Shown here piece by piece: positions 8,374 through 35,822 of a stretch of 64,000 nt of DNA (positions are counted from its first letter, which is position 1; each line of letters starts with the position of its first letter). The notes under the pieces were generated by a model that saw nothing but the letters and a program-made list of their open reading frames with translations, was not told where the DNA came from and did no database searches. The position numbers were made by a program, and so were the translations under genes. The DNA is from Sparassis latifolia. Its lineage: Eukaryota > Basidiomycota > Agaricomycetes > Polyporales > Sparassidaceae. The stretch covers positions 496,001 through 560,000 of the forward strand of contig CM031559.1 in NCBI GenBank assembly GCA_018466975.1, read 5' to 3'.

Positions 8374-11245
8374 CTGGCATAGCGGCCATTGCACGCAGTG
8401 ACACTGATGTTAGCGCAAAGTCCTGATGCTCATATACAGGTGGAGCGTCATTGGGGTCCTCGAAGAGGATGTCCGATATTGCATTGAACACCGCAGCGAG
8501 CGACGGGTTGTCCTCATAGTCACTGCGGTCAGGCAACGGCATTGCAGCAAGAATATCATGCTGCACTAGAAGCTGTGCACGAATTCGCTCGCACCGCCAC
8601 ACGAATTCGGTCAGTGCCCGGATGCGATCAAATGGGTCGCGCAGCAAGTTTCCTTGCTCTACGATGCTGCAGGCAAGCTCGCGTTGGGTCCATACCAATT
8701 GGCCATACAATATGTCGATGTATCGGTCGTACTGTTGTAGGTTTGAAAGGAGGTCACCATTGAGGGCATACAGGCCATGGATAGCATCCATTGGAGGACC
8801 TGCAAGCCACGACTCAAGGGCGCCATCAGTATTGACTTCCGAGGTGCTGTCACTATTTTCCTCAGCATCTGAAATTGCCACAAGTGATGGCATTTCATCG
8901 TCATCTGCATCTGTGTCCGATTCGAACGACAGCGGCTCCGAGGACTCATCCTGGTATGCCGGCGGGTTTGTAAATACAGCGGACACAGCAGCATTGTCAG
9001 CATCTCCAACAAGTGCTGTAGCATCTCCTCCAGCTATAATTTCGGTCTGGAGTCAAAGCATCTCACGCTCGAACACAGAGAGCATTTCGCGCAAGGGCTC
9101 AGATTCCGCAGAATCTTCATCCTCAACAATGCGCATTGACCCGTAGTACATGACATCATCATCCTCAAGGTCAAAGTACTCCTCCAGAGGGTTGGTCTCC
9201 TCCTCTGGATCATACTGCGAGCCCTCGACGAGTGCAACTGTCTTGTCCTCGGGTTTGCCATTCCCTGCATTGGGTGCAATGTTATCATGCACAAAAGTGT
9301 GCTCATCCTCAGCTACCTCCGGATGCTCCTGCACATCATCCTGGGCAGGTTCTGCCTCCGCGGCTTCTCGCTCATCAATTACACGAGCTGCATGGAGCTT
9401 CGGGCCCTTGGACTTTGGGCAATTCGGTGACAAGTGGCCGTACTCACCACAGTTGTAACACCGGACGTTCACAAGGTTTCCTGAGGGTCCGCCACGATTT
9501 CCAGAGAAGTTAGTAGGCCGCCCGTCCTTCTGCGTGGACTGCAGCGGGGCTTGCAATGAGCGATTCGCGCTCTGCGGTGGACGGTTTCCAGATCTGCCAT
9601 CACGACGAAAATCATTGCGACGCACGATGCGCACAAATCGTGTCGACTTCCCATGGTCGGGGTGCTTCACAGATGAGCTCTGGCCATGAGTGTCTTGGGT
9701 AGAAGTAGTTTTCGCTGGCGTGGGTACGGGTGCAGGTGCGGAATGTTTGACACAATTTCGTGAAACAACCTGGTTGTTGTGTTCTTGCTGAACAGCAAGA
9801 CGCAGCAACGTGGTAAGCAGAGTGGTCTCGACGGAAACGTCCTTCGATCTGAACAGAGGGACGCAGACTTCATCCGGAAGCGCCTTGACAAAGGTTCGCA
9901 CGAACGTGTAGTCGTCGGGTGGCTGAGGCATATGGGCAGCATACTTAGCTAGCTCGTCCCATACACTGTTTACTCCGCCATCCTTCGTGTATATTACTGC
10001 ATAGAATTTATCAGCTGCATTTCCTGCAGTTGCGTGATACAAGAACCACCAGAAAATGGCACACGCGGCATCTTCAAAATTCCACTTTACATTATTGTGA
10101 GGCGTGTCGACATTGTCATTGTACTAGTCAGCAGCCTTACCCTTGAGAAATTGGCCCATAAGTTGGAGCTGTTCCTCATCGAGGTCTGGTCCGCACATGC
10201 GATAGAGCCGAAGCCATCGCAATAGGGACTTCAACCACAATTCGAAAACTTTAAGATCATCCTCACCTGAATACTTGTCAGGCAGAGGTATATTTTTCAT
10301 ATTTTTCAGAGCATTACTATCAGGTAGTGCCCATCCGACTTTCTTCCTGATCATCTCATGAATAGTTTTCACACCATCACGCATGAACGAGTCGTCAACA
10401 GCGGGTAACGTATATCCCGGCTGTGGCTGTTGTTGCTGACGAGGTACACTACCACGGGGCATGCTGTGTCTACCCTGTAAGTAGCTGGGACTCCGTGTTG
10501 CATGCCTGTCAAGATTACGGACAGACGGCCTCTCGGAGCTCTCGTCATCATCTCCGTCATCTCCATCCGAGCCGCTACCATGCAGACTCGAGTCACCATC
10601 GCCATCCAGAGAACCGCCATCACTGCCTCCACCAGGGAATCCACCAGAACGGAATCCCCGACCAGAGTAGACGGAGTGTGATCCGCGACCACACGCGGGC
10701 ATTCCTTCACGACGTGGCGGGTTGTTGCTACCACCACCACCAGGTGGTCCCGGCGACGGTGCATCACCAAATGCGGTGCGCAGTGTGGCAAAGGGCATCG
10801 CACTACCCCAGCACGCACGCATGTCTACGCGGGACTCGGATTGCTGCCAGGTCTCGTTGATGCGGGCCTCGCACTCTCGATGCCGTTGTTCTGCCCTGCA
10901 CGCATCCAAAAAGCGGGTTTGGCCATTGAGACGAATGTTGTACATGGCATCCATCTCGTTTCGGTCGCGGGGCCAAAACAGCATGTCGAGCGACCTCTCG
11001 ACATAGTCGTCCGAGTTGATTGGCGGAGACTGCGGCCGATCGCCTTCAATGCCAACAGGCGGCCTCGACTGATGAGTTGCCTCGTCTGTCATGCAAGATG
11101 AAAACTCGTGTAGCGGGGTCTCTAAGTTGTCAATCTTGGGGTTCTCCCGCTTCTTAATGCGGAGTATGGAGGAGCGAATCTTACTAATCGCCTCCTCAAA
11201 GTCCCTTTGAGCGTTCACGGCTCTAGCGCGGGTAGCATTGGCCTC
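8374..11245 (-). pseudogene. gag: Ty3-type Gag, main part (split by element B)
   Basis: This is the structural protein of an LTR retrotransposon of the Ty3/gypsy kind; it would form the cytoplasmic particle. The minus-strand frame is open from the element B boundary. It contains a coiled-coil-like start, a Gly/Asp-rich linker, the retrotransposon gag domain (YSGEDDLKVFELWLKSLLRW through FVRTFVKALPDE) and a CCHC zinc knuckle (CYNCGEYGHLSPNC, near 9430-9470). An acidic C-terminal region follows. In-frame stops are TAG at 10124-10126, in a position where the family normally has Trp, and TGA at 9053-9055. The frame continues unchanged after both. The 3' end is cut by element A at about 8374. No protease or reverse transcriptase is visible, and I identify no LTR. 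Confidence 0.85.
11239..11245. repeat. Target-site duplication, left copy (element B)
   Basis: TGGCCTC is identical to 35816-35822. Extending the pair by one base breaks the match, so the duplication is 7 bp, or 8 bp with one change. Confidence 0.8.
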
Positions 11246-11504
11246 CACACCTTTCAGTCATGTTACCTGAACTGAACTCCCATTTACTCTGACATTGTCA
11301 TGAACTGGACACATCAGCAAAAGTCAACTCTTGCTTACCCAGATTATTCCCTTGATCGAGGAAATTTTAAGGAGATCCTCATTATTATTCTTCCTTATTC
11401 ACCTTAATTGGCCAAATAAGGAAGCAGACCTCCTTAATCAAGGCAATAAGGAGCTAACCAAGAGTTGACTTTTCCTGATGCAGCCAGCGGACGTCGGCCC
11501 ATTG
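11246..11504 (+). repeat. Left terminal inverted repeat of element B
   Basis: The repeat matches the reverse complement of 35729-35815, from the CA next to the target duplication, through TTCAGTCATGTT, CTCCCATTTAC and GACATTGTCATGAACTGG, to CGGCCCATTG. A 169-bp MITE plus a 2-bp duplication interrupt it. Without them it is 88 bp against 87 bp on the right. Confidence 0.85.
11312..11480. mobile_element. 169-bp MITE in the left TIR
   Basis: The ends are inverted: CATCAGCAAAAGTCAACTC at the left, and TTGACTTTTCCTGATG closing the right, with one mismatch in 22. Comparison with the uninterrupted right TIR (ctggacagccag) shows the empty site directly and gives a 2-bp CA duplication (11310-11311 and 11481-11482). 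The interior is AT-rich with further partial inverted repeats (AAGGAG/CTCCTT) and no reading frame. Confidence 0.85.
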
Positions 11505-14229
11505 TCACCATGTTGACCTCTACCAGCAGTGGGCCCATATTTTTCATGTGTGGGATACTAGCAGTGGGCCCACCGCTAGTGTTCTTCTCTCAGTGCTCGG
11601 CCCACTAGCAGGGCATATTACAGTGTTGTAACCGTTAAGCAATGGGCCCACCGCCACAGGTCAGAGGGTGGGCCGACGCCAGAGCATGTTATCGCCATCG
11701 ATGGGCCCACTGCCAAAGTATGATCAATGAGCAGTGGGCCCATCGCCACGAGTGTAAGATGACGGATGGGCCCACCACCAAAGGTCAGAGTGTTGGCCAT
11801 GGCCAGAGCATGTTTGTCTGAGCAATCGGCTCACCGCCAGAGTATGACGAATAAGATGACGGATGGGCCCACTGCCAAAGGTCAGAGTGTTGGCCATGGC
11901 CAGAGCATGTTTGTCTGAGCAATCGGCCCACCACCAGAGTATGGCGAATGAGCAGTGGGCGATCGCTGAAGTGTAACCTGAAGGATGGGCCCACTGCCAA
12001 AGGTTAGAGGGTTGACGATTGCCAGAGCATGTTATCGCCAGCAGTCGGCCCATCGCCAAAGCACCCTCAGTGAGGGCCTTACTGCAAGCACCCATGGGAT
12101 AGGTCATTGCCAGAACATGTTTCCCTTCCGACCTAGCTCTTAGCTTCAACATAATCTATATTGTGTAGTGGCTAAGAGCCTCTCAGGTGTCAGACAGACC
12201 ATGGTACCAATACATGTCCCAGGGCATTATATGGGATTACCCAGGGCAAAGGCAGGGCAAAGGCAGGTCCAATGGCACAATTATCATATGGGATGTCCTA
12301 TAGTACTAGGGCATTGATATTTATATCCCAGTATTACTGGTTGTCCCATGGTGCCAGGGTACATAGGGATGTCCACTATTAGTAAAACATGTATTTTCAG
12401 GCTATTGTATGGTAGTTTTTATACTTTGTTCTACAATCATATTGTATAAGCTCTAATTATAAAAACAGTGACTAGAATACTGTAAATAAGTGCCTTATTT
12501 GCACTTTATATATGGTGAAATATTTATAGAAAGCAGGATATCCCATATCAAGTATTGTGCACATATTTGTAATGTTATAAAGACTATATTACTATTGGTA
12601 GCATGTACAACAACTTCATTAGCTCATATAACAACTAATACAGGTCAAACAACAATGTTTATTCTTGTGTTTCAAAATTAATTTTACATTTTCTGACATA
12701 ATGTTCAGACTAACATGATATAATCTTTGGCACATAGTATGTATCATAGCTATACTACAACTTTCACCAAGTGTCTCAAGAAATAAAACTACTCAGTCTA
12801 CTAATATACTAGCAAAGGAGATATATTCTTGTCATGTCTCCTATCATATACTATATTTGAATGAAAAAAGAAAGGCATTTGACCTAAGACTTCAGTCAAG
12901 TCACACTCAGAAATGCATTCACTGAATGACACCTTTGTATTATGGGATGTCCCTTTATGTGATGGGATATCCCTTGTAAGCACCTGTCACTCTTAAACCT
13001 TAGTAATTCAACTGTTAGTATAAATCTCTAGATAATTATAGTAGTTAAATAGAAACTTCAGGCTAAAGAAGAGACTAAATATCTGTGAATCTTAAAATAA
13101 CATCTTAGGATGTCCTTAAAATGGGAGATCCCACCTTATATAATATGCAAATAAAGTGCTTGTTTATATCACTATAGTCACTGTTTTCATAATTAAGGCT
13201 TAGATAATATGATAGTGGAACAAAGTATAAAAAAACTACCATACAATAGCCTGAAAATACATGTTTTACTAATAGTGGGACATCCCTATGTACCCCTGGC
13301 ACTATGAGACAACCAGTAATACTGGGATATAAATATAAATGCCCTAGTACTATAGGACATCCCATATGATAATTGTGCCATTGGACCTGCCTTTGCCCTG
13401 CCTTTGCCCTGGGTAATCCCATATAATGCCCTGGGGCATGTATTGGTACCATGGTCTGTCTGACACCTGAGAGGCTCTTAGCCACTACACAATATGGATT
13501 ATGTTGAAGCTAAGAGCTAGGTCGGAAGGGTACCCTGAAGTGACGCCAGAGCATGTTTGTTTGAGCAATCGGCCCACTGTCAAAGTATGACGAATGAGCA
13601 GTGGGCCAATCGCCCAGAGTGTAACCTGAAGGATGGGCCCACTGCCAAAGGTTAGAGGGTTGACGATTGCCAGAGCATGTTATCGCCAGCAGTCGGCCCA
13701 TCACCAAAGCACCCTCAGTGAGGGCCTTACTGCAAGCACCCATGAGATAGGTCATCGCCAGAACATGTTTCCGCCAGCAATCGGCCCACCGCCAAAGGTC
13801 AGAGGGTTGGCCAACGCCAGAGCATGTTATCACCAGCAATCGGCCCACCACCAAAGGCCAGTGGGTTGACGATCACCAGGATATGTCATCGCCACCAATG
13901 GGCCCATTGTCACATACAGCCCTGCAGTTTTCGGGCGCATTGGTGGTGATGACATGCTCTGGTGATCGCCAATCCTCTGACCTTTGCCGGTGGGCCCATC
14001 ACTCACCAGCACTCATGGCAGAGGGCCAATTGGTGGCGAAAACACGGCTTGGCGATGGCCAACCCTCTGACCCTTGGCAGTAGGCCCTTTGCTGGCGGAG
14101 CGATATTCCCATGCAGTGAAGCTTTCACTCAGGTCCTTTGGCGATGGGCCAATTGCTGGCAACAACATGCCTTGGTGATGGCGAGCGCAGTCCGCCCATC
14201 TGAAGAGTACACTGGAGGAGCGATGGGCT
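11505..14229. repeat. Left subterminal repeat array of element B
   Basis: The array contains diverged repeats of roughly 60 bp built from GCCAGAGCATGTT, GCAATCGGCCCACCGCCA and AAGGTCAGAGGGTTGGCC. A 1.4-kb foldback element splits it at 12123-13530. A block of about 155 bp is nearly identical on both sides of that insertion (about 11970-12122 and 13620-13775). From about 13920 to 14200 the repeats turn over and read in reverse orientation (CCTCTGACCTTTGCCGGTGGGCC). The core ATCGGCCCACCGCCA is the reverse complement of the core of the right array. Confidence 0.85.
12123..13530. mobile_element. Foldback element, 1,408 bp, arms about 355 bp
   Basis: Left arm 12123 to about 12476 and right arm about 13175 to 13530 are inverted copies of each other, starting CCCTTCCGACCTAGCTCTTA. 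The middle is AT-rich and I recognise no protein in it. Base composition differs sharply from the GC-rich array around it. No clear target duplication is visible, perhaps because the surrounding repeats recombined afterwards. It is a non-autonomous element of unknown superfamily. Confidence 0.8.
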
Positions 14230-15721
14230 TTAGAGCTTAGTGATGCAGAAGTGAATGTATCCATTTTGTACTGGTATACAAGCTGTTACATAGCGGTCAT
14301 ATATTGCTAACACCAGAGCGCTCAAAGACACTAGTTCAGTTGCTGCGATCGCCTCGCCACGAATGTCCCTCAGAATGTACCCCATTTGGAACACGGTCGA
14401 GCTGGCATTGAGGTTCGCAGCGTGCATATCCTCAGTGAGGTTGAGCTCACGCTGAAGGCGTACAATGCGCTCCGCAACATGGCGCGGCGACGACTAACCG
14501 CAAAGCTATCACCTTCGTCATCGTCCACTATGAATAAGGTCAACATCAGACTGAAGGTTGCCAGGGATGTACTCACTGGAACTGTCTGCCTCTGCTGCGA
14601 TCTGCGCAAACGATCTACCGAGGCGGGCCACTTGTGAGCCAGAAGCGGCATTCGTCTCTCCAGGGACTGCCATTGGCAGCAGCTGTGTGGTATCTGGGAA
14701 TAAGCCTGGAACCTGTTCCCAATGGGTGGGACGATGGATCGGCAGCTCATCTGGAAGTGCTGCCAGACTTGGCATCCTGGAAGTAACAGTGACTGGCTCG
14801 ATGCTGCCTTTCATATAGTGAATGACAGGTGCATCATGGCGGAAATTGCTGTCATCGAAAGTGCGAGCTGGCGAGTGAGAGCGCCGATGGCGGAGGCGGT
14901 GGACTTAAAACATCGTCCAACAAAGGCGCCTCTTTGGAGGCGAAGTGCTGGGACTATTTAGCCACCGGACCTGGCTACGCACAGGCGTCGCGCCAGGGCT
15001 GTCTATCACCAGAGCTCGCCGTCGTCCTGGCGTGGCGGGAGGACTATTGTCAAAGTCCAGCAGTTTCGGCACTGGTTCCGCATCAAGTGTCTCGTCCACC
15101 AGCATGCCCCTCGCCATCGGCGTACTTGCTTGACTATCGAAGTGGATGGATGTACGTGGTGTAGCGTCAAGGGGCTCAGCGATGAGCGATCGTCGAGGAG
15201 TTGGGAGGTGTCAGGAGTGCGAAAGTCGAAAGTGTGAGCTGGTGGAGGAAGGGAGTAGCTTCCAACAGGGCGCGTCGAGGATTGGCGAGATGCCAGGAGT
15301 GTCGAGTCGAACATTCCACCGGGCGCAGTGGGGTGGAATCTGAGATGAGTGCGCCTATGGATTGGCGAACTGCCACGACTTTCATCCCAAGCTGGCGCCA
15401 GAGGTCAGGAATAAGTGCGCGACTTCCCTCCACAGGCGCCACAGATCCAGATGACGCCTGTACCTTTGGCGAGGCGTGGCGGTGGAGATGCTCATGTGGC
15501 GAGTTGGATGGCGCAAATGGAGCTGCCAGGGACGGAGTAGTGTGGCGAGGCGCGAGGGGTGTCTGAGAAGCAGAGTGGAGAGGCAAGGAGATCTGGGCAG
15601 ATCCAGGAGAGTCAAGGAGATCCGAAATGAGTGGACGACGGGGCTCAGCGATACTATCCTCCTCATCCGACTCGCCCATCGTAATGTCCAGCGTGTCAGG
15701 AGGTTCCGCGTCACTGGCCAT
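14230..15721 (-). CDS. Unknown element B cargo protein
   Basis: A minus-strand gene of unknown function, divergent from the gene at 16091. ATG 15721-15719 opens a Pro/Ser-rich frame with an acidic start (DITMGESDEEDSIAEPRRP) that ends at a stop at 15176. Further coding-like segments follow in other frames: 15117-14905 (FDNSPPATPGRRR), 14814-14530 (RTFDDSNFRHD through ARLGRSFAQIAAEADSSS) and 14470-14230, a helical C-terminus with RIVRLQRELNLTEDMHAAN and YILRDIRGEAIAATEL. These can be exons joined by short introns, but I could not make every junction work, so frameshifts are possible. No catalytic motif is visible. It shares the intergenic region 15722-16090 with its neighbour, suggesting a common promoter. 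Confidence 0.5.
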
Positions 15722-16090
15722 GGCAGGTAGATTGTGGCGAGCAGACAAGTCTTCGATCAGTCCTGGATCGCGGGAGATCAGTTGTAGAAAGGGGATTGAT
15801 ATGACATAGAAAGGTCAGATAACATCACAAAGGAGTCAGATTCCACAAGGAGAGCAATAGAACTTACTGTTGGGAGCCATGAGAACTTGCGGCAGGTCAC
15901 ACTGACCTTGAGAGACTTGAGAAATCGCGCAAGTCCAGCGATCACGTGCAAAGCACGTGGTCGCGTGGCGTGTGAAGTTGAACTTGGTGCAGATCGCGTC
16001 TGCCAGCTCATAGCGTCGTCTGCTCCGCCTCCGCTGTACTGCAACCTCTGCTTTTGAAACACCCTCACGCTTTCTTCTGCCAAGCTCACC

Positions 16091-19000
16091 ATGCCTCTGG
16101 ATATCGACCCCAACTATGTTCTGCAGGCCGCGCGACTGACGGCCATTGTTGCAGCGGCGCCTCGCCAGGACGACCCTCGCTATCTGGACTGGGAGACGAG
16201 GATTTACCTCGAAGTGGTAAGTCATCGGTCGAAGGTCTGGCATGCACTTACCGAATATGCCACACAGAGTCGGCTTGAAAAGAGTTTCCGCAGCCCTTGA
16301 AGTCGTTGAGGATGCCTGGGATCGTCATCAGCGCGTTGCTGGAATTCACCGGGCATACCAGCAGAAGGCCCTGGCGCGGCTGGACCACATATCGAGCGGC
16401 GACGAGAGGATATACAAGAGGTACCCTCTGGCTGTGCGCAGTATGGGAGTGTGAGGACCTGGGAAGGCAGTGGTGGACTGAAGGTGAGTCACAAGCGTTG
16501 TGAGGCGTCGGCGACACACTGACTGCACCAGATCCATATTGCAAGCTGCCACCGGTGAAGAGTACGCCAGCAGAGGGCTGGGGCAATGTGCCAGCCGATG
16601 GCGACACCCAGGGGCGTGGCGAGGAGGACCTGGCTACCGGGGACCTCGTCACCAAGGGAAAGGCAAGGAGAGAGCTGACAACGGCGTCGGGACAGGCATG
16701 GTGGGTGAGCGTATCGTCCACGTGGAGGCAGGGGACAAGGAAAGGGCAAGAGCAAGGAGAAGGCGCGGGGAAGGCGGCACATGCGATGAGCGAGGAAGAG
16801 GATGGGGAGAGGGAGAGGGAGGGAGAGGGAGAGGAGAGGGAGAGGGAGGAGAGGGAGAGGAGAGGGAGAGGAGGAGAGGGAGAGGAGAGGAGAGGGAGAG
16901 GAGAGAGGGGAGAGGGAGAGGGAGAGAGGGAGAGGGAGAGAGAGGAGAGCGAGGCGCGGCGATGATGCCGACAAAGATGACAATGATGAGATGGCGGAAG
17001 GCGTGCGGGTGCAGGCCAGCCCGAATCCATCGAGGTCGATGCGGCGTCGCCCCTCCGCCAACTGCCAGACCAATATCGATCTCGCCAGCTGCCCCATCAC
17101 TCCGAAAGCGCAAGGCGGTCATCACAGAGTCAGTGAGGAGAGTGAGAATGAGGAGGCAGCTCCGAAGGCGAAGCGGATGAAGCCGATCGAGTCGCAAAGG
17201 AGAAAGGCGAGGCCCGACCACCTCTGGCTGAGCGCAGCGTGCGCAGAAGAGGATGGCGCAGACCGAGGTGGAGGGCTCGAAGGTGAGCACGAAGAAGAGC
17301 GGGAAGAGGAAGGCGAAGGAGTCAAGCGATGAAGAGGAAGTACCGACCGTCAAGCCGCCAAAGAAGAAGCGTCCGGCGAAGGAATACAAGAGCAAGGAGT
17401 TCATCGAAAGCGAAGGCGAGACTCCGGCACCGCCTTCAATCTACCGCCAAGACCGCGGGGACTCTAACGATGGTGTTGCGAAGACGAACGCCCCTGCCAA
17501 ACCTGTCAAACAGACAACGAGGATGGCGGCGACGCCTCATGTCGCACGAAGGAAGGGAAGGGAAGGCAAAGCAGCGGCGAAGGGAAGCGGCGGCGAAGGC
17601 GAAGGCGAAGGTGATGGTGTCACAGAAGGACATGTGGAAAAAGACGTCCACCCGCGTGTCTGACTTCATGTGGGCACATGCAACAGATTCGGTGAGTAAC
17701 GATCTTGTGAGACATTGACCTGTGCTAATGTTCCTGCAGCTCGTCCCTTGCATTGGCTGCCAGGAGAAAGAGTGGCCATGCAAGCTCAACACCGCCAACT
17801 TCAGTCACTGCCTTGAATGTGCAGCACGAGGCGTCAGTTGCAGCATCGCACCGAGGAACACGGACGGTGTGCCCCTGCGAGGAAACTCACACACCGCACA
17901 GCATGAGTTCCAAGAGATGTGCGCAGCGCTGGTGGTAGAGGGCAAGCCACTGCCCATGTCGCCACCTCCATACGACGTCAAGGTCGACTCCGATGAGCCC
18001 AACGGTGCAGAACCCATGGTCATGGGAGCATCGAAGCGCAAGCCGCCGAAGAAGACCAAGATGCGCAATGCTGCAGCATCCAGCTCCAAGGTCAAGGGTG
18101 GCGAGGAGGTCGAGGCGACGAAGCAGAAGGTGACCGTCACGCCTGATGAAGCCAACGCTGAAGGCGAGGCCTTGGTGGAGAAATCGTCGAAGTCCAAGCG
18201 CGCCACCAAGTCCGCCACTGCCACTGGAGCTGTGGCTCTGTCCAACTCTGGCGAGGTCGCCAACTCTGGCGAGGTCTCCAAGTCTGGCGCGCCTGCCAAG
18301 TCTGGTGCAGTCGCCAAACCTGGTGAAGGTAAGAAATCAGGACCCAAGCCAAAGCCAGTGAGGAGCCAAAACTCAGGTGCGCAAGATGGTGGCGAGGTCA
18401 CCAGGACCTCAGTACGTGAGGCGGATGAGGTCCCGCCTGCCAAGTCTGTTGCGAAGGAGGGCGGGCAGACGACAAGGGTGGCGATGGGAGGTCGCTCGGG
18501 CCCAATGGTGCCCGTGATCACCAGGAAGGCGGCGAGTGCTCGAAGGCAGCAGCCAAGATGCCTCTGGCGGAAGCGATGGCATGGAGGAAGCCGCCAGGCT
18601 GGCAATGGAGGCGGTGCGGGCTATGGCCTTCCAAACAGGGCCAGCTGCTCCGCCGCAAGCTAGCAGCAGCAAGCGCATGCTGACACCAGTCGCCGACGAA
18701 CCAGAGGATGCGCCAGAGTATCAGGCAGAGGTGGCGGAGGATGAGGTAAGCAGGACATCTTGTCGCAGCTGGAGTCGATGTAACCATGAAACAGCGCGCG
18801 TCCTTGGAGCGGCCACCACGACGATCGGCGGCGTTCGCTGCTGATGCCCCATGAGACAGCGCAGGAGCTGCCGAGGTGGCACAGGAGGTGGCGCCCTCCT
18901 GGAGATATCCAAGGCGTCGAAGGGCGAAGTCCTCCACATTGGCGAAGGCAGGACATCTCGATGAAGGCGAAGGCCAGCTAAGAGGCGCCCCACTGGACCG

Positions 19001-24159: not shown

Positions 24160-25597
24160 ATGAGCAATCTGTCACCCATGCCACTGACCGATCAGATAGC
24201 AGGAGTCTTGGAGCTCATGTTCCGCCGAAAGCTCCATCTGGCCACTCATGCAGCCCATTCTGTGCCATCTATAGAAGTGCTCTCCGCCCATGCCATCCGC
24301 CTCCTATTGGAGTGCAATGGCATTGCAGATGCTCTTGTGAAGGCCATCCGTAATCCTGGTAGTCATTAGTCTTGCCGCAGGTCTGATCACACTGATCACG
24401 CCATTGTAATAGTAAGGCTGCAGTGGGACATTGATAGATATTGCGACAGCCTTTCGATTCAGCCCACAGGGCAGAATGAAGTCCTCGAGGCAGAACTGGA
24501 ACGGAAGTGGCCTCCTCCATTTGGTGAGAGCGAAATACGCATAGACCAGCCCGCCACCCTCGTGGACATGCACGGACGCATCTTGGCTTGGATACTTCCA
24601 AGAGTGTTGATACCAGACCGCCAGGTGAGTGGCTTGCCCAGCCTTGCGCTGTGATCTGACAAATTTGTCAGATGAAGATGCTCCAAGCGACCAGGGCCCT
24701 ACACCCAGCAATAGCAGCCAGTAAGCCTTCCAGCACCACCGCCAGTTGGCGACACAACCCGTTGTACTTCTTGCCTCCTGAGGAGTGTGCCCAATTCCCA
24801 GCGGGCTCCTTGTGTCTCTCGCCAGGTTGGTTCCAACAAGTAAGAGAGGTGGGTCTCCTCGCCACGCCATTTGCCTTGCGTCTGGACAGCCTTTGCAGCA
24901 TATGGAGTCTGGGAGGCTGGAGACCTCCGCCAGCCTGAAGCTTGAGGGCGGAAGAAGTTGGCTGCGTGATATTCATGACTCCTCCGCATTGCTGGGCGCC
25001 ATCCTGGCCGTCGTTCACCCAACACTATATGCCGCAGGACGCCAGTGCTTGGGTTTGATCCAGCAAGACCCAGAATTGCGAGAGATGGCGCTGAACTGGT
25101 CGTCGCCATTCAATGCGCTCCAGGTGATCGCCAACCGGGAAACTCCTTTCCACCGAGATAGCAAGACAAGATACACGTTCTACGACCTGTTGGCGACGTT
25201 GGGCAACTACACTTGCGCGTGGTTGAAGTTCCCCGCCATGCGTGTCGCCATCGATTATAGTCCTGGAACTGTCATAGCCTTCTGTGGAAAGGCGATTCGT
25301 CATGGCGTCACTCGAGCAGATGGCGAAAGGCTCGTCTATGCATACTTCATGCGAGAGGGTGTCCAGAACAGGCTAGGCATTCCGGCGCCCCACTGGATGC
25401 AAGCTTCATATTACGCCTCACACATTGGCATGTGCACAGTTCATCACCGAGTCTGCATTCCTAACTCAGAACAGGTCCTAACTGGCTCGCTTATTAGAGG
25501 GACATCATGCCAAAGACTGATGGAGATGAGAACACTATGCAGGGGATGGAGACTGTCGATGGCAGCTTCATTGGCGGGACAAAGTTGGCGGAGGTGA
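24160..25597 (+). CDS. TET/JBP-family 2OG-Fe(II) dioxygenase
   Basis: Predicted nuclear dioxygenase of the TET/JBP family, which oxidises 5-methylcytosine (TET) or thymine (JBP) in DNA with Fe(II), O2 and 2-oxoglutarate. Model: exons 24160-24358, 24413-24624, 24672-24839 and 24890-25597. All junctions are GT-AG and in phase, giving 428 residues. Exon 2 has the family's start, PATLVDMHGRILAWILP. Exon 4 has the double-stranded beta-helix core: HRD at residues 281-283 (codons from 25151; first two iron ligands), YDLLATLGNY, DYSPGTVIAFCGK, RHGV with His 331 (codon 25301; third ligand), and GERLVYAYFMR with Arg 340 as the likely 2-oxoglutarate contact. No stop or frameshift is visible. It sits between the companion gene and the KDZ transposase. 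Association of TET/JBP genes with KDZ transposons is established for basidiomycetes; substrate and activity here are inference. Confidence 0.9.
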
Positions 25598-25921
25598 TGG
25601 CGAAATGTATGGAGTCACGAATTTCCGAATCCTAGCTGAAGGTTGGCGAGCGCGCGGTACGAGTGCGCATTTCACATCTCGACAGTGTTCAGCTCAAGGT
25701 GTAGTTATCACTGATGGCAGCATATGGTTGGCGGACCTCGAAGTTGGCGGAGATGGTGGCGAAATGTATTCGGTCGAGAAGTTGTGAGTGCTAGTGGGGC
25801 AGATGGCAGCAGTGTTGGTGAGCACACGGTGCAAGTGCACGTTTCCCTTTTGAACATTATGCTACTCCAAGTCAAGGCAAAGTTAGCACTGAGGGCGACA
25901 TACGATTGGCGGACCTCTTGC
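25582..25921 (+). repeat. Imperfect two-copy direct repeat
   Basis: Units of about 160-180 bp (25582-25740 and 25741-25921) both begin AAGTTGGCGGAG, continue with a GGCGAAATGTAT block, and end with TTGGCGGACCTC. They lie between the TET/JBP stop codon and the transposase start. No credible gene is present in this 530-bp gap. Confidence 0.6.
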
Positions 25922-28900
25922 CAACATGGCATCCTTATCTGCATAATGCTGATATGGTGCCTAAAGAGACCACGAGGTGATAAGGCCCAGGCATTGCAGC
26001 CATTCTTAACCACCTTGATGAGTAGTCTGGTGGGCAGCAAGGCCGTGTGTGATTTGCACGTGTTGTGCGATAGGGACACAATGCTCATCGATTGGCTTGG
26101 AATACGACTCCCCACTGACCTGAACCATGAGCAGACGCAACAAAAGCAGGCTCGTTGTAGACCTGGATGACGAGGTTGAGTTTGTGACCAAGGTAGCTAA
26201 GCAGACCACTAGGGGAGTACGCTATGTGGACGTACCTTTGCCCATGCCCACGGGTTCAAACGTGCCATCACCTTCCAAAAGTCCATCGAAGGCTCCAGCT
26301 TCAGGCTCCTTGTTTAACTTGGATGATGGCGACATCCTGGGCAACATAGGTGTGCCGATTCAGCTGGATCCGGCAGCTCGGAAGACAAAGGTGGGCACTC
26401 CTGCCATGACCATCTGACGGTCTGACCATGCGCGATAGACCCAGAATGACTTCATGAGGGACTGGATACCCCACCGTGATGACTATCTTCATGCCATTGT
26501 CGAGATGGAAGCCCCGCCTGAGCCCAGAAACTGTGCAGAATGCAAGGTTGGCGAGGGACGGTGGCGATGCCTGGACTGTATGGGCAGACCGCTCACCTGT
26601 ACCGACTGCTGTCGTAACGGCCATCAGCGTGCTCCTTTCCATCGGATAGAGCATTGGCAGGGTCAGTATTTTGAGCCGGCATCACTGTATCGGGTTGGTG
26701 TCTGCATCCATTTGGGGCATGGTGGAGATCCCTGCCCTCTGGGCGCCTTCACAGCACATAACAACCCTGCGCCGGTGGTGGCCCCGGGGTCCGATTTCTG
26801 GAATGCCTCCAATGAAGACCTAAATGCACATGATGGCGAGGTCTCAGATGATGGCGAGGTCCCATTCAACTTTGCACCTCTGGCAGGCACCCTTGACGGT
26901 GAAGCAAGGCAAACCGATGATGCTCCCGATCCCACTTGGGAGGAAGATGTGCCACCGGTGCTCTCCCGGCCACCTCGCCGTGATAGTTACGGGAATCGGA
27001 TCATAGTCATTGTCGACATCTCTGGCGTTCACCATATCGGCGTTGACTGGTGCCAGTGTGAGATGGCAGTGGAGCGTGACATGCAGCTTCTTCAAATGGG
27101 ACTTTACCCTGGTACCGTCAAGGATCCCCATACCGCCTTCACATTCGCCGTCCTCGACGATTTCCTTCTGGAGAACAAAGAGTGCAAGACGGCGGCATTG
27201 AACTACTACAGCAAGCTCAAATGGGTCACGAGCAATGCCTTCCCTGGCACCGTTCCCGTAAGTGTTCACATGCATTCCCATGGCCCAACCGTTCATGCCA
27301 GTTCCTCGCCAGGACCGTTATCGTGAGCTGATGCGGTGTCCTGCCAATGGCGCCAATTCAAATATCGCAAGTGGCACGGCTTCTCACACGATGCCCTCCA
27401 TCCTGTGGAGAAGGGTGGCCTCGCCATCTTTTGTCCCGCCTGTCCCCAGCCTGGGCTCAACCTGCCTTTCGATTGGCAAGCAGATCCAGTGCAGTGGAAG
27501 TTCAAATGCGACTTTGTCATGGATGGCAATTTCAGTGCAGAGCACATGAAGATGAAGCACCCCGAGGAGGACGTCGCCCTCAGTGATGGCCAGGCATTCA
27601 TGGTCAGCCAAGAGGATTACAAGGCTCATCTGGCGGTGGCCATGGAGTCTCATCAGGTGCGTGTCTGGCTGCACGTTCTTCTTTCGCCCTTGACTCCTAA
27701 GCCCACCAGCGCTCCACTTGTCATGAGCACCGCGCTGTCAATCAGGCCAATGTGGATCGCGCCAACCTCGACGCCATAGGAATCGGGGACACTGCTTGCA
27801 CCAGACATGGTTTCTTCGTCCCTCATACTGTCGTCGATTTCCAGAAGGGAGAAAGGTTCGCATATGTCTCTTGTCATGATTCATTCTCACCGACGCACCC
27901 TCTGCAGACAAATGAATATGGATTACTCTCTCAGCAATGCGCTCCTGACCTCACCGTATCACCTCGTATCCTCGTTATGTACGACATCATGTGCCAGTAT
28001 GGCGTCCATGTCCGCAAACATTTCTGCCACAGCGCCTATCTGAGGATGCCCTTCGAGCTCAAGGTAGACCAAGGCATCGGCTTATTTCATGTGCACGGAC
28101 ACCAAGATTGCTGCTTCCAACGGTTCTCGCCCAACTTTATAGTTGGCGCTGGTATGGTCAATGGCGAGGTCATCGAGACCCTGTGGGCACCGACAAATGA
28201 GGTCTCAGGCAGTACCAGGGGCATGACCCGAGCTCACTGCCAAGAAGTCCTTGACGATCACATGAATGACTCCAACTGGAAGAAGACGACTCACATGGGT
28301 GAGCCTGGTTCCTCCTTCCCTATTTGCCACCTGCCTTATGCTGCCTATAGTGCCAACCTTGATGACAAAGTGGAAACGCGTGCTCCTGGGCTTCCCACAA
28401 AGCAAGGAGTCCTTTGAAGCTTTATCTGCATCCACAGATGAGGATGTCCTTGAGGCATGGCAGAAGGAGTACGACAATGCTATGGAGGCTCGCCAAAATG
28501 ATCCGAAGATCATGGACACCTTCGATGTCCAGCTCATGAAGGGTGAGTATCCTTCCATCGTCGTGTGGCATGTAGTTGACGTGAATGCAAGCCCCGGGTA
28601 AAGACCTCACCCAACTCAGACTGGCGGGCGAGGAGTCCGCCAAGGGCTTGGAGAAGGGCACCGCCGGATGGTTGTTGACTGGCCTCAAAATTCAAGAAGC
28701 ACAGTGAGTTTGCCTCATCTTAACAAAAATACAGCTCTGACGGCCTTCAGGCTTAAGCTTGCGAATGATATCCGCAAGGCGGGTCAAAATCCGAGCGTGG
28801 CGGAGGACCTCAAGACTCTCGAGCACTGTCAGCGCCTCGAACGTTGCTCTGAGAAGTTTATGCGAAGGTTGAAGGACGTTCCCGCCATGGAAGATCGTGA

Positions 28901-28953
28901 CGATGGTGCGCTCTGGGATTCCTTGGATGAGAATCCTTTTCAAATCATCTTTG

Positions 28954-30130
28954 TCAGTTATGAAAGATAATCTTTTCCATCAATAAGTAGCAAATTTTTA
29001 TGAGAATTGCTACTTTTAAGTATACTTATCTGTAGGTGCATAGATTAATTCAGGATAATCTTAATATAATCTTCCAGATAATCTGAGGATAATCTTCTGG
29101 ATAATCTGAGAATAATCTGAAGATTAGCAACAAAGTACAATTTTAACTTTGACACCAGCCAGGATTGAACCCTGGACCTTAGGTTGATTTTATAGAATAT
29201 AATTCCAAGTGACACTTTAGACCACTTGACCATTAGGCCATACATCACAACCATCTTATATTAAATTAGACATCTTTTTCTTAGAAAAGACTTAGCCAAA
29301 TTCTGTCTATTAGAAAAGAGTAAGTAAAAGACACTTGACTTTTATCATAGATAGACAAGACTTATAAACAAACATTACTCTGAGTCTTATAGTCTTTTTT
29401 AATGCTTGCAGCCTTCATATAATGTAGTACAATATGTAATTAATAGAATATATGTTTCTACAGTTACTTCAGCAAAACAGAACTTTGCTATACAATTAGA
29501 AGATAGCTATAAAGATCTTATATATATAAGTGCTCAGTCTATAATATAATAGACTCTAGAGTATAAGCCTAAAATGAACAAATAAAATACTGTCTCTCAA
29601 TAACTTGTTATATATTGTAGATGACTATATTAAGATACTTTATAGTACTGCATGATAGTTTATAAAAACTGTAAGCTGTAGAACAAGACTATAATAAGAT
29701 GCAGAGTACTGTTTGTCTATAAGTCTTGTCTATCTATGATAAAAGTCAAGTGTCTTTTACTTACTCTTTTCTAATAGACAGAATTTGGCTAAGTCTTTTC
29801 TAAGAAAAAGATGTCTAATTTAATATAAGATGGTTGTGATGTATGGCCTAATGGTCAAGTGGTCTAAAGTGTCACTTGGAATTATATTCTATAAAATCAA
29901 CCTAAGGTCCAGAGTTCAATCCTGGCTGGTGTCAAAGTTAAAATTGTATTTTGTTGCTAATCTTCAGATTATTCTCAAATTATCCAGAAGATTATCCTCA
30001 GATTATCTGGAAGATTATATTAAGATTATCCTGAATTAATCTATGCACCTACAGATAAGTATACTTAAAAGTAGCAATTCTCATAAAAATTTGCTACTTA
30101 TTGATGGAAAAGATTATCTTTCATAACTGA
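28954..30130. mobile_element. Foldback element, 420-bp arms, in KDZ transposase
   Basis: Arms 28954-29373 and 29711-30130 are nearly perfect inverted copies with tips TCAGTTATGAAAG and CTTTCATAACTGA. Flanks are CATCTTTG (28946-28953) and CATCACTG (30131-30138), an 8-bp duplication with two changes. Deleting the element and one flank restores a continuous transposase frame (PFQII then TVQIHPEDAE). The 337-bp middle is AT-rich with no protein. Long arms with an 8-bp duplication could fit a hAT- or Mutator-related non-autonomous element; I cannot decide which. Base composition (AT-rich) contrasts with the transposase exons. Confidence 0.9.
29844..29922 (+). other. tRNA-like A and B boxes in foldback arm
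   Basis: TGGCCTAATGG (29844-29854) resembles the pol III A box and GAGTTCAATCC (29912-29922) the B box. The B-box region can pair as a T-arm-like hairpin. The left arm carries the mirror copy on the minus strand (about 29160-29240), with GGGTTCAATCC, closer to consensus. I find no acceptor stem, so this is not a functional tRNA gene; it may derive from a tRNA or SINE. Confidence 0.45.
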
Positions 30131-31208
30131 CATCACTGTTCAAATACACCCAGAGGACGCTGAGTATGGCGAGGATGCGATTCCTCCCGAGCGAGCTTCT
30201 TTGAATTTACCTTCGCAGATCGGATTCGTGGCCGCCATCGCCAATGGGCTCCAGACCCTGGCGGCCCAAGAGTTGGAGTTGCGCAAAGGCCTGATGAATG
30301 ACATCCTCCACGAGCTTCGCATGGCGCTTGGACTGAAGTCTTACCTCTACCGCAAGAGGGTTCGTCCCGCCAACAGCGTCGGAACCATGACTCGTGCACA
30401 GGCGGAGGTTCATGCTGCCGATCAGACCGTCTTGGCCTGCGCCAGGCTCTATTCCACCAACTGACGCACCATTATGCGCTTGGGCGCCACCGATGAAGAC
30501 TTGGCCCTCTATCGCCCTTTGGATAAGAAGAACCTGCACGTGAAGACTGCCGTCATCGAGGCTAGCACCTCTGGGCTCAGGAACGTCAACCTGGCTTGGT
30601 TCTGGACCATGGATGTCGCTGGAGATCGAGGTTCATCAGAATGGATGGATGAGTGTTCGTAATTGTCCGATCGATCTCTAGGCCTCCTGCTAATTTACCC
30701 TCCAGTCTATAGAGTGAATTGGCTGCGTGCCAGAGCTCAATATGAGAGATGGAGGGAGGAGCGTGTCTTGGTCCACTCGGAAATGGCCTGGACCATAGCC
30801 ACCTTCAAGCAGAATGCGGAACGATGGGCTCACTGGCTCGAGATGATGGATCCTTCCTGGCGGGGTCATGTTTGCTATGCCACCAGGCAAGTGAGTATGT
30901 GGCGGACCTTCGCCAGCCACGCCACTGACGCCTTCAGCCACATCCTCGCCCTGGACATTGAGGACGAAAGGGCGGGCGATGAAAATGTGCTTTGAGTCAG
31001 GGTTCACTGGGGTGTACGCATATTCATGTTTGCTATATCAATGTAGTGATCGTCATGTATGTAATTCCTACTCACCAATATCACATTTGGCGAAGTGACC
31101 TCCATCCTCGCCTGAGGGCTTCATCTCGGCATGTGCTCTCCAATCGCATGACATCAGACATCAGATAAGGTCGATCAGATATCAACCTCAGCTCATCCAC
31201 TCACCATC

Positions 31209-31929
31209 ATGTCTGCCCAGTCTTCAACATCAGATGCGCACCCCTGCCTGTTCTCCAGAGGGAGGTTGCAGTTGGAAGTCTACACTTGGAGGATCCAAGA
31301 AGCTGTTCTGGCACTGGAGCCTGACCCAGATCACTTCACCAAGGTCCGTTGGGAGGAAGGCTTGCACCGGGAGATGGTACGCCTTTCTTGCTGATATCCC
31401 CTGACCCTGCTGAGTCCTGTGCAGTTCGCCGTCAGGGGTATCTGTGGCGACCTCGCGTTGGCAGGTCATGCTGACCATATTGACCATGGCGGAGTTATCG
31501 CCAGTGTCCTCACCATCTGCACTTTCAATTGCGAAGTTCTGCGCCTCATCAGCATTGACGTCAAGGCGATTCCACACCCCACCACCCTCATTCCTCATCC
31601 TAAGAACCTACTCGAGGATTCACCCGACTACTGGTGGAAATGGGATCGTCAGGTTGGGCCGGCGGGGAGCCCTATGGAGGCCTGGTGGTACAAACTTGGT
31701 GATCCCTGGGTGAGTGGTACGTTCCAGCACCTTACAGTCTTGCTGAACCTCGAGAACATAGGAGAAGGTGTACACCATCTCCGAGTCTACACTGGTGCAG
31801 CTTGAACAGCTGCATGTTCGCGTCGCGAACCTCACTAGTTGGTTGCACGAGAGGACAGATCAGAACCTGGATGTGGTGCTGGAAGAGCTGCAGGAGGCGA
31901 CGCGACAGCTGCGTGAGTTAGGAATGTAA
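31209..31929 (+). CDS. Small unknown protein, element B cargo
   Basis: A three-exon gene downstream of the transposase. ATG 31209 starts MSAQSSTSDAHPCLFSRGRL. The second exon (from about 31425) has ICGDLALAGHADHIDHGG and SPDYWWKWDRQVG. The last exon (from about 31767) is a coiled coil (STLVQLEQLHVRVANLTSWL and on) ending at TAA 31929. GT-AG junctions are compatible but not proven. I do not recognise the family. It is the last gene before the right repeat array and lies in the same orientation as the transposase, so it may belong to the transposon's own gene set. Confidence 0.5.
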
Positions 31930-32036
31930 TCACCCAATGCCAGGCGTCCGTTCATGCTGTAGTGTGTCGAATATAAGGTTGTCATGTCTTTGAACCTGGG
32001 CAATGTACCTGGTGTGGTAAGGCGAAACATAGTAGC

Positions 32037-32365
32037 CACATACTCTCCTCAGGAGGGCACATCCCCAATGGTATCTGATGCATGACTCGAAAGCCAATGC
32101 CACATGGGAGAGTTTGGCGGTCATTCTGGACTGCATGTTCAGATAGCGAGTGATATCCACCACAGTTCACCAACCCTACTCACGGTGGAAAGGACCGCCA
32201 TTCATCTCCACATACTCTACCCAGAAGGGCACATCCCAAATTGTATCTGATGCATGTCTCGAAACACCGATGCCAATTGGGAGAGTTTGGCGAAGTCATT
32301 CTGAACTCCATGTTCAGATGGCGAAAGATATTCACCACAGTTTGCCAACCCTTCCCACAGTGGGA
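32037..32365 (+). repeat. Two-copy direct repeat, about 170 bp
   Basis: Two diverged copies (about 32037-32190 and 32208-32365) share CACATACTCT, GGGCACATCCC, GTATCTGATGCATG, GGGAGAGTTTGGCG and ATGTTCAGAT. They lie just inside the right repeat array of element B. No gene is seen here. Confidence 0.65.
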
Positions 32366-32445
32366 GAGAGTGTGATACTGCAAGGAGAGCTGATAGTGAG
32401 CTAACCAGAATTGGAGGGAATGATGGGTGGATTACGTGGAAATTA

Positions 32446-35400
32446 TTGGCTGGCAGTAGCTCCATCATTGCCCTGTTAGGTGGTGGATCAATCACTGAAA
32501 AATATGCCCATGGCAGTGGACTGATCGCTGAGAACTACACCTATGGCGGTGGGCCGATAGGTCTGAGCAAGAGGTGCCGCATGAGCAACGACTCGGCGTC
32601 GGAGCCCCCTTCTTCTGTGGTGTGCTTCGGCTCGTACGCTAATTCACACACGTCCACATCCTCGTCTACTTCGTGCTCTTCGGTTGACTTCGGGTACAAT
32701 CCGTTCACTTCGTATGGTCTACTTCTTGGCTCGGGCAACCAGGCGTGACATCCGCCCATGCTTCCCCCTGACCAATCTCCACATTTCATACATCTGCCCA
32801 TGCTTCCCCCTGACCAATCTCCATGTTTCATACATCCACCTATGCTACTCCCTGACAAATCATCCGGTATGTTCCTTCACTCACCCATGCTTCACCAAGA
32901 CGACATGGACACGATACGAGCCCAGTTGATAACCTAGGGCAAGGCAAATAACTCAGCTATGCCCAGGCTAGTCAGATATTTCAGGCTACCCATGCCTATG
33001 GGCTCAGAAATATACCTATGGCGGTGGGCCGATGGCTGTATAATAGCCCCATGGTGGTGGGCCGATCGCTCAGAACACTACCTATGGAGGTCGGCCCATC
33101 GCTCAGAACCCTACCTATGGGGTTGTGCCAATGGCTGTATAATAGCACCGTGGCAGTGGGCTGATCGCTCAGAAATATACCTATGGCGGTGGGCCGATCG
33201 CTCAGAACACTACCTATGAAGGTCGGCCCATCGCTCAGAACACTACCTATGGCGGTGGGCCGATGGCTGTATAATAGCACCGTGGTGGTGGGCCGATCAC
33301 TCAGAACACTACCTATGGTGGTGGGCGATCGCTCAGAACACTACCTATGGAGGTCGGCCCATCGCTCAGAACACTACCTATGGCGGTGGGCCAATGGCTG
33401 TATAATAGCCCGTGGTGGTGGGCCGATTGCTCAGAACACTACCTATGGCGGTGGGCCCATCGCTCAGAACACTACCTATGGAGGTCGCCCATCGCTCAGA
33501 ACACTACCTATGGCGGTGGCCCATCGCTCAGAACACTACCTATGGAGGTCGCCCATCACTCAGAACACTACCTATGGCGGTGGGCCAATGGCTGTATAAT
33601 AGCCCCATGGTGGTGGGCCGATCGCTCAGAACACTACCTATGGAGGTCGGCCCATCGCTCAGAACCCTACCTATGGGGTTGTGCCAATGGCTGTATAATA
33701 GCACCGTGGCAGTGGGCTGATCGCTCAGAAATATACCTATGGCGGTGGGCCGATCGCTCAGAACACTACCTATGAAGGTCGGCCCATCGCTCAGAACACT
33801 ACCTATGGCGGTGGGCCGATGGCTGTATAATAGCACCGTGGTGGTGGGCCGATCACTCAGAACACTACCTATGGTGGTGGGCCGATCGCTCAGAACACTA
33901 CCTATGGAGGTCGGCCCATCGCTCAGAACACTACCTATGGCGGTGGGCCAATGGCTGTATAATAGCCCCGTGGTGGTGGGCCGATTGCTCAGAACACTAC
34001 CTATGGCGGTGGGCCCATCGCTCAGAACACTACCTATGGAGGTCGGCCCATCGCTCAGAACACTACCTATGGCGGTGGGCCCATCGCTCAGAACACTACC
34101 TATGGAGGTCGGCCCATCACTCAGAACACTACCTATGGCGGTGGGCCAATGGCTGTATAATAGCACCGTGGTGGTGGGCCGATCACTCAGAACACTGTCT
34201 ATGGCGGTGGGCCGATTGCTCAGAACACTACCTATGGCGGTGGGCCCATCGCTCAGAACACTACCTATGGAGGTCGGCCCATCGCTCAGAACACTACCTA
34301 TGGCGGTGGGCCCATCGCTCAGAACACTACCTATGGAGGTCGGCCCATCACTCAGAACACTACCTATGGCGGTGGGCCAATGGCTGTATAATAGCCCCAT
34401 GGTGGTGGGCCGATCGCTCAGAACACTACCTATGGAGGTCGGCCCATCGCTCAGAACCCTACCTATGGGGTTGTGCCAATGGCTGTATAATAGCACCGTG
34501 GCAGTGGGCTGATCGCTCAGAAATATACCTATGGCGGTGGGCCGATCGCTCAGAACACTACCTATGAAGGTCGGCCCATCGCTCAGAACACTACCTATGG
34601 CGGTGGGCCGATGGCTGTATAATAGCACCGTGGTGGTGGGCCGATCACTCAGAACACTACCTATGGTGGTGGGCCGATCGCTCAGAACACTACCTATGGA
34701 GGTCGGCCCATCGCTCAGAACACTACCTATGGCGGTGGGCCAATGGCTGTATAATAGCCCCGTGGTGGTGGGCCGATTGCTCAGAACACTACCTATGGCG
34801 GTGGGCCCATCGCTCAGAACACTACCTATGGAGGTCGGCCCATCGCTCAGAACACTACCTATGGCGGTGGGCCCATCGCTCAGAACACTACCTATGGAGG
34901 TCGGCCCATCACTCAGAACACTACCTATGGCGGTGGGCCAATGGCTGTATAATAGCACCGTGGTGGTGGGCCGATCACTCAGAACACTACCTATGGCGGT
35001 GGGCCCATCGCTCAGAACACTGCCTATGGCAGTCAGCCCACTGCTCAGAACACTACCTATGGCAGTGGGCCAATGGCTGTATAATAGCACCATGGTGGTG
35101 GGCCGATGGCTGTATAATAGCACCGTGGCGGTGGGCTGATCACTCAGAAATATACCTATGGCGGTGGGCCCATCGCTCAGAACACTGCCTATGGCGGTGG
35201 GCCGATCACTCAGAACACTGCCTATGGCGGTGGGCCCATCGCTCAGAACACTACCTATGGCGGTGGGCCCATCGCTCAGAACACTACCTATGGAGGTCGG
35301 CTCATCGCTCAGAACACTACCTATGGCGGTGGGCCGATCGCTCAGAACACTACCTATGGAGGTCGGCCCATTGCTCAGAACACTACCTATGGCGGTGGGC

Positions 35401-35728
35401 CAATGGCTGTATAATAGCACCGTGGTGATGGGCCGATCACTCAGAACACTACCTATGGCAGTCGGCCGATGGCTCAGAACAGCTCCAATGGCGGTGGGCC
35501 GATGGCTGTATAATAGCCCCATGGCAGTGGGCCGATCGCTCAAAAATACACCTATGGCGGTGGGCCCATCGCTCAGAACTATCACCGCGGCAGTGGGCCC
35601 ATGCCTGTATAATAGTAGCATCATGGTGATGGGCCGATCGCTCAGAAATACTCCTATGGCGGTGGGCCCATCGCTCCAGCATTCCCTTCATCGCCATGAG
35701 CCGATCGCTGACAGCTCCTTACACAGAC
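32446..35728. repeat. Right subterminal array, 33-bp units, element B
   Basis: Tandem 33-bp units contain the core TGGCGGTGGGCCGAT and the segment CGCTCAGAACACTACCTAT; two main variants read GGTGGGCCGATCGCTC and GGTCGGCCCATCGCTC. Interspersed units carry GGCTGTATAATAGC. A higher-order copy of 792 bp (24 units) repeats at 33597 and 34389 with almost no change. An earlier copy at 33041 is 556 bp away and contains small indels. Since 33 is a multiple of 3, long stop-free frames arise on both strands; I do not regard them as genes. Before 32950 the units are degenerate. Confidence 0.92.
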
Positions 35729-35815
35729 CAATGGGCCGACATCCGCTGGCTGTCCAGTTCATGACAATGTCAGGGTAAATGGGAGTCCAGTTCACAAACA
35801 TGACTGAATGGGCTG
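35729..35815 (-). repeat. Right terminal inverted repeat of element B
   Basis: The reverse complement of the left TIR, uninterrupted, so it shows the empty site of the MITE found on the left. It ends TGACTGAATGGGCTG directly against the TGGCCTC flank. Confidence 0.85.
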
Positions 35816-35822
35816 TGGCCTC
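35816..35822. repeat. Target-site duplication, right copy (element B)
   Basis: TGGCCTC is identical to 11239-11245. It forms part of the gag codons GAG-GCC on the minus strand. Confidence 0.8.

Follow-up and report, generated by a model that had tools for sequence, protein, structure and literature searches.

TET-bearing Kyakuja transposons of Agaricomycetes have 7-bp target-site duplications and CA..TG termini and occur in hosts from five orders, including Polyporales, according to the main text of a 2025 survey, which also states that the function of TET in TET-bearing fungal transposons has not been experimentally validated (Kojima 2025, PMC12730594). Two Laccaria Kyakuja families are described in the same text without terminal inverted repeats (TIRs). 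Elements with a KDZ transposase are further described from Cryptococcus, where KDZ1-KDZ3 combine a transposase bearing a Cys-cluster domain with TIRs and short duplications and have been observed in fresh insertions (PMC12810828), and from Pleurotus ostreatus, where an intact KDZ transposase is preceded by a CxC2 cluster (PMC7641404). Here we analyzed a 64,000-bp stretch of the Sparassis latifolia genome (contig 8, positions 496001-560000; referred to as the window) that contains a 24,570-bp transposon with genes for both a KDZ transposase and a TET/JBP dioxygenase. Sparassis belongs to the Polyporales.

The element shares with the TET-bearing Kyakuja the 7-bp duplication, the CA..TG termini, the KDZ transposase and a putative AG-type TET close to CcTet, as far as these are set out in the survey's main text (PMC12730594). 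Its CxC2-KDZ arrangement resembles that of the P. ostreatus elements (PMC7641404). Cryptococcus KDZ1-KDZ3 differ from it in size (∼9-11 kb), in the length of the TIRs (139-241 bp) and of the duplications (4-8 bp) and in having a CxC1 instead of a CxC2 cluster, and no TET appears in the description consulted (PMC12810828). Unlike the two Laccaria families (PMC12730594), the Sparassis family has inverted repeats of ∼87 bp; we do not take the absence of TIRs in those two families as defining Kyakuja, and the Sparassis repeats add to the published picture of Kyakuja ends. Membership of the KDZ superfamily follows from the KDZ domain (PF18758) together with the CxC cluster, and assignment to Kyakuja from the 7-bp duplication and the CA..TG termini, i.e. 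from end features rather than from a transposase tree; TIRs, a duplication of fixed length and a clean empty site identify a cut-and-paste TIR transposon.

An initial annotation of this DNA, made from its letters only, had held the link between KDZ and TET/JBP to be known in basidiomycetes, and it is indeed in print (PMC12730594). The Sparassis family is thus an unusually well-delimited further member of a described kind. The main text of Kojima 2025 (PMC12730594), its supplement aside, makes no mention of Sparassis or of the terms subterminal, zinc, accessory and HMG, and among the Sparassis genome papers listed no title on Sparassis transposons turned up; we make no claim that the accessory genes A and B described below are new to the literature. 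Considered as a whole, the element is very probably a TET-bearing, Kyakuja-type cut-and-paste transposon whose TET most likely lifts the methylation silencing of its family. With this delimited family come empty sites, copies with TET alongside copies without it, CpG decay and a sign that TET is under selection, and whether a transposon's own TET lifts its silencing becomes testable in an edible mushroom.

Ends, target site and family of the element

All positions are window coordinates; the element at 11246-35815 is denoted the window copy, and C1, C8 and so on are contigs of the same assembly (41.4 Mb, 22 contigs), the one genome searched. The stretch 11246-11311 recurs in inverted form in the final 65-66 bp up to position 35815, with a 44-bp core that is 95% complementary. 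Once a nested 169-bp insert (11312-11480) is bridged, the inverted repeat reaches ∼87 bp, as originally annotated (with 100 bp aligned per end, 87 of 105 columns are identical). Five other copies yielded 86-90 identities per 102-105 columns over the same length, so that repeats of ∼87 bp are present in six of six copies aligned, window copy included. With the right end as query, all 39 other scored genome matches end at 35815 (+0-4 bp); with the left end, all 39 others begin within 11241-11246 (40 matches were scored of 126 right and 123 left candidates). Mis-set ends were rejected because the boundaries of other genome matches coincide on both sides. Termini of the type 5'-CA..TG-3' were found in all 17 end pairs that were read, and one of 58 left ends obtained by pattern search begins with TA. 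In this one genome we saw neither ends lying inside a longer conserved unit nor copies ending elsewhere. The span 11239-35822 given previously was right in its ends and wrong in including both duplications, which do not belong to the element proper.

The identical TGGCCTC flanks were confirmed as a 7-bp target duplication by reconstruction of the empty site. To this end, 200 bp of left flank including one TGGCCTC were joined to 200 bp of right flank, and the resulting 400 bases were searched against the genome. Nine matches were obtained, two of them the window's own halves; six cover all 400 bases (two at 95-96% and four at 81-82% identity) and one covers bases 36-400 at 76%. The two best uninterrupted relatives align without gaps over 400 of 400 bases (96.3% and 94.5%) and carry a single TGGCCTC, as the proposed empty site requires; a chance origin of the duplication was rejected because the empty site carries one copy. 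In the joined flanks a minus-strand frame stays open through the joint, and a nearby open reading frame (ORF) contains a zinc knuckle. Because uninterrupted relatives match the joined flanks, the window copy is inserted into one member of a repeated gag-like gene.

The initial annotation had proposed a search for further copies that share these ends but differ in their flanks, and such copies exist in the same genome. When up to three mismatches were allowed, a pattern search located 58 left ends and 65 right ends, and the reversed pattern, used as a control, matched nowhere. Of the left ends, 55 have a right end of matching orientation no more than 60 kb away, some right ends being shared. 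The spacings include 21 pairs 19-25 kb apart and 22 pairs at most 9.4 kb apart, and 49 non-redundant pairs cover 715 kb, or 1.7% of the genome. In the longer class the 20 pairs other than the window copy measure 19.3-21.5 kb, which puts the usual unit at ∼20 kb. Target duplications were read in 17 pairs (15 long and two short): ten are exact, one agrees at six of seven positions, two are swapped between an inverted pair and four pairs have none. A further short copy has the exact duplication GATTCTC, its flanks being common with a short copy already among the 17. The swapped case concerns C10:495586-515388 (minus strand) and C10:538596-560016 (plus strand), whose duplication partners GGGTGAC and GATGGCA are exchanged, as expected if recombination between the inverted copies had inverted the intervening 23 kb.

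Six other long copies are collinear with the window copy over the blocks listed and 96-98% identical in two aligned blocks; some copies have small deletions, and in the C2 copy a stretch of ∼3.7 kb towards the left end lies outside the block listing. A composite of two elements was rejected because the long copies share the same order. A short copy of 6,662 bp, the only one read from end to end, has just its ends (to 1308 and from 5706) in common with the three long copies compared, the filling between them being different. Judged from this one copy, the ends and arrays seem to be enough for mobility in trans.

Copies with corresponding spacing and the same flanks were also noted at two places, namely C8:1962096 and C8:1504721, and C10:2829356-2856465 and C11:3024777-3051688; they are either products of segmental duplication or haplotypes left in the assembly. 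In several copies, the window copy included, gaps of a single base occur in clusters; C5:1323078 and C5:4301341 share many one-base gaps at the same positions, some of them also seen in C1:821999, perhaps as assembly errors common to these repeats.

Genes of the element

The initial annotation listed six genes, of which the KDZ transposase and the TET/JBP enzyme stand; in all we find support for four genes and, more weakly, for a fifth (Table 1). Its description as a KDZ transposon carrying TET was borne out by the domains: the element contains 58 stop-to-stop ORFs of at least 120 amino acids, and in the 20 scanned with Pfam only Tet_JBP, CxC2 (92.3 bits) and KDZ (125.3 bits) exceeded the cut-off, and neither a host-type domain nor a recombinase was found among these 20.

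The TET matches the solved CcTet with an E-value of 6.6e-26. Taking the roles of the CcTet residues, including the iron site, from the survey's main text (PMC12730594), we find the HxD motif, the distal His, an Arg and Asp337 kept; the position of Gly331, which is Gly or Ser in print (PMC12730594), is Thr in the Sparassis element, which predicts a changed use of 6mA. Among 28 copies, all retain the distal His, and 27 each retain HxD (the remaining copy is gapped there) and the residue matching Asp337. The enzyme is predicted to be of the AG type by its iron site, the Asp337 match and closeness to CcTet alone. The genome holds 32 TET stretches above the Pfam cut-off, 27 of them without an internal stop, and 12 more below it.

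Genes A and B are less readily classified. The cluster of gene A scores 12.4 bits against Zn_clus, under the cut-off of 21, and a Zn2Cys6-type motif occurs once per copy in five of seven long copies and is missing in the other two. Gene B reaches 19.5 bits against HMG_box_2 (cut-off 22.4). A fold model of its product (mean predicted local distance difference test score, pLDDT, 39.6; predicted template modelling score 0.27; alignment of three sequences) is too poor to decide the fold; in it residues ∼121-150 are helical with pLDDT values of 62-76 and coincide with the weak HMG match at 123-148. The closest proteins of three element genes come from Sparassis crispa or S. latifolia. For gene A two of two matches, and for gene B five of five at an E-value of 0.001, are from Sparassis, in a search that needs shared five-residue words and may miss distant relatives. 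When the listed matches were grouped into loci, 33 of 33 for gene A and 33 of 34 for gene B lay within 16 kb of a family end, a zone that makes up 6.1% of the genome; the sole gene B exception among the matches listed is C8:2161212 (56% identity). Genes A and B therefore look specific to the family rather than picked up from the host.

CpG decay, selection and the proposed role of the TET gene

Across the seven long copies, C-to-T changes at CpG on either strand account for 1,088 of 2,029 differences in the main aligned block; for the second block the figure is 120 of 207. The C-to-T rate is 0.076 at CpG versus 0.004-0.009 in other contexts. Judged by this pattern of substitutions, the copies of the family decay as methylated DNA does. 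Raw counts of nonsynonymous (N) and synonymous (S) changes were little informative because CpG decay swamps them, and setting CpG transitions aside helped. In the tests made in this way (p one-sided and uncorrected for 11 rows, each allele counted as one event), three KDZ exon pieces in seven copies gave 34 S and 44 N changes (N/S ratio 0.47, p = 0.0009). The TET main exon gave 10 S and 6 N in seven copies (0.24, p = 0.005) and 28 S and 36 N in 28 copies (0.56, p = 0.016). The shifted frames of TET in the 28 copies yielded 1.53 and 1.28, and all shifted TET and KDZ frames were at least 1.28. These ratios show the TET and transposase frames to be under constraint, with signs that selection keeps TET.

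The TET most likely counters methylation silencing of the family, as far as can be read from sequence. In such a cycle the CxC2-KDZ transposase would bind both the inverted repeats and the subterminal arrays rich in GGGCC, excise the unit and insert it with a 7-bp stagger, and would also mobilise in trans the short relatives, in which the genes of the element are missing. The host would methylate CpG in copies of the family, and the element's TET would oxidise their 5-methylcytosine and so lift the silencing of the family as a whole. More tentatively, the proteins of genes A and B would bind element DNA and aid transposition or the demethylation step.

Several observations weigh against this reading. 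CpG decay proceeds alike in the subterminal stretches (0.05-0.094), the TET gene (0.076) and the rest of the body (0.071-0.086). Protection of arrays or ends from decay was sought across all stretches tested and none was visible; with decay equally strong everywhere tested, a protective effect of TET is not visible in the sequence. The N/S tests use few sites, the TET ratio is weaker in 28 copies than in seven, and no significant ratio was obtained for gene A, B or D. A stop lies inside eight of the 28 TET main exons, and seven of the 17 pairs lack an exact target duplication (two fit an inversion, one is off by one position in seven and four have none). Finally, the clustered single-base gaps may be assembly errors, which leaves it unsure which copies are intact.

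Some of these observations would fit a TET that is a passenger, the transposase alone moving the unit and TET having no role in its spread. Short relatives have spread as well, with TET in none of the 22 pairs of at most 9.4 kb; neither the ends nor the TET gene show reduced CpG decay, and the N/S ratio of TET climbs as copies are added. Against this, TET is retained in 20 of the 21 pairs of 19-25 kb (in one of the 20 through a stretch under the Pfam cut-off), its frame still has fewer amino-acid changes than expected, its key residues are kept in 27-28 of 28 copies, and short copies can borrow transposase and TET in trans. We consider a passenger TET unlikely.

A more elaborate form of the anti-silencing role can be drawn from the same sequences, and we regard it as speculative and, if anything, doubtful. 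The Zn-cluster protein, the HMG-like protein or both would bind the GGGCC and 33-bp arrays and recruit TET to methylated ends; array length would tune the dosage, and short gene-less copies would keep their arrays to stay recruitable. If true, such a self-directed kit would be the fungal, enzymatic counterpart of plant VANC, which to our knowledge is no dioxygenase. The working would be like that of Arabidopsis VANDAL/VANC as described, in which a silencing-countering protein goes together with fast-diverging noncoding tandem repeats (PMC10398659). Binding of the repeats by VANC has been shown in the plant element (PMC10398659), whereas in Sparassis it is only guessed.

It is very unlikely that TET serves the host, for example in gene regulation or centromere chromatin, with the transposon as a mere vehicle. 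Oxidised methylcytosine in Coprinopsis cinerea is found also on other transposons and the centromere, according to the survey's main text (PMC12730594), which would suit such a role. In contrast, 23 of the 32 TET stretches of S. latifolia lie inside paired family ends and eight of the nine others within 13 kb of an unpaired end, the only one far from family ends being C7:3173839; moreover, the stops in TET main exons are as for element copies rather than host genes.

The cut-and-paste nature of the element bears on a last alternative. The initial annotation had seen more of a cargo-carrying giant than of a cut-and-paste element, a view that the inverted repeats, the 7-bp duplications, the short TET-less relatives and the family-specific genes A and B do not support; the element is best read as a large cut-and-paste transposon with genes of its own rather than as a collector of cargo. 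Starships have a tyrosine-recombinase captain and host-gene cargo as hallmarks. A Starship-like giant capturing and moving host genes is scarcely credible: the ∼20-kb basal size and the extra genes would agree with it, but the mobility gene is a KDZ transposase, the 20 ORFs scanned of 58 revealed neither a host-type domain nor a recombinase, genes A and B keep to the neighbourhood of family ends (gene A at 33 of 33 loci, gene B at 33 of 34 among the matches listed), and the six other long copies are collinear with the window copy apart from the ∼3.7 kb of the C2 copy outside the listing.

Features, subterminal arrays and nested insertions

Table 1. Coordinates of the element, its parts and its genes in the window
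Feature	Position	Strand	Evidence and remarks
TET-bearing Kyakuja (KDZ) DNA transposon	11246..35815	+	24,570 bp, 5'-CA..TG-3'; match ends, pairs, target duplication, empty sites
Left target-site duplication TGGCCTC	11239..11245		One copy at empty sites L062 and L063
Right target-site duplication TGGCCTC	35816..35822		Pairs with left duplication; empty sites
Left TIR, first 66 bp	11246..11311	+	Resumes at 11483-11503 past nested insert
Right TIR	35729..35815	-	Complementarity with left end
Nested 169-bp insert	11312..11480		CATCAG..CTGATG, 2-bp duplication CA; ends of PlavakaB type (PMC12730594)
Left subterminal GGGCC-rich region	11483..12124		GGGCC counts, alignments
Nested inverted-repeat insert, edges approximate	12125..13541		CpG observed/expected 0.04
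Gene A	17719..19909	+	Zn2Cys6-like cluster 17749-17841, basic low-complexity middle, coiled-coil-like end
Gene B, several introns	20279..23492	-	HMG-box-like stretch in N-terminal half, basic/acidic tail; piece 20279-21340 joined by inference
TET/JBP dioxygenase gene, several exons	24005..25633	+	Main exon ∼24902-25441; Pfam Tet_JBP 72.7 bits; CcTet match; 28 copies
CxC2-KDZ transposase gene, split by insert	26127..30995	+	KDZ and CxC2 domains; first and last base read by eye
Nested foldback insert within KDZ gene, 1,193 bp	28946..30138		7-bp duplication TTCAAAT, CA..TG ends, CpG observed/expected 0.00
Possible small gene D	31210..31930	+	Extent judged by eye; not supported by its N/S ratio of 1.2
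Right subterminal 33-bp tandem array	33002..35676		62 recognisable units on right side

The subterminal arrays announced by the initial annotation proved to be a GGGCC-rich region on the left and a 33-bp tandem array on the right. With 62 units the array of the window copy is the longest of seven, six other long copies having 13-42. Counted over the outermost 1.3 kb of each side in eight copies, the motif GGGCC/GGCCC occurs 22-56 times on the left and 12-43 times on the right; single-base shuffles gave means of ∼2-6 and the middle of the element 1-5. The right-side count of 12 in the C1 copy falls inside the shuffle range.

Three nested inserts interrupt the window copy, and all of them are missing in six of six other long copies. 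The CATCA..TGATG ends of the 169-bp insert are those given for PlavakaB in the main text of Kojima 2025 (PMC12730594). Together with the longest array, the three inserts inflate the window copy, so that the 24.6 kb first reported is not typical. The element had also been called complete, which is true of its ends and not of its transposase gene; because the 1,193-bp insert splits this gene, the window copy is probably not mobile by itself and, judged from the interrupted frame, probably relies on transposase made by other copies. The arms of the foldback inserts at 28946-30138 and 12125-13541 are 97-98% alike despite almost no CpG; the inserts were either free of CpG at their origin or underwent extreme decay and then spread.

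A second KDZ transposase lies outside the element at 5309-5932, and six TET matches under the Pfam cut-off have 204-amino-acid frames (C8:489342, just left of the window, C10:525251 and others); these suggest a second TET-bearing family in the genome. The right flank contains more inverted repeats at 38381-39521 (90 bp at 99%, 64 bp at 100% and 40 bp at 88%), perhaps another foldback element, and the left flank a tandem repeat with a period of ∼195 bp at 7683-8085.

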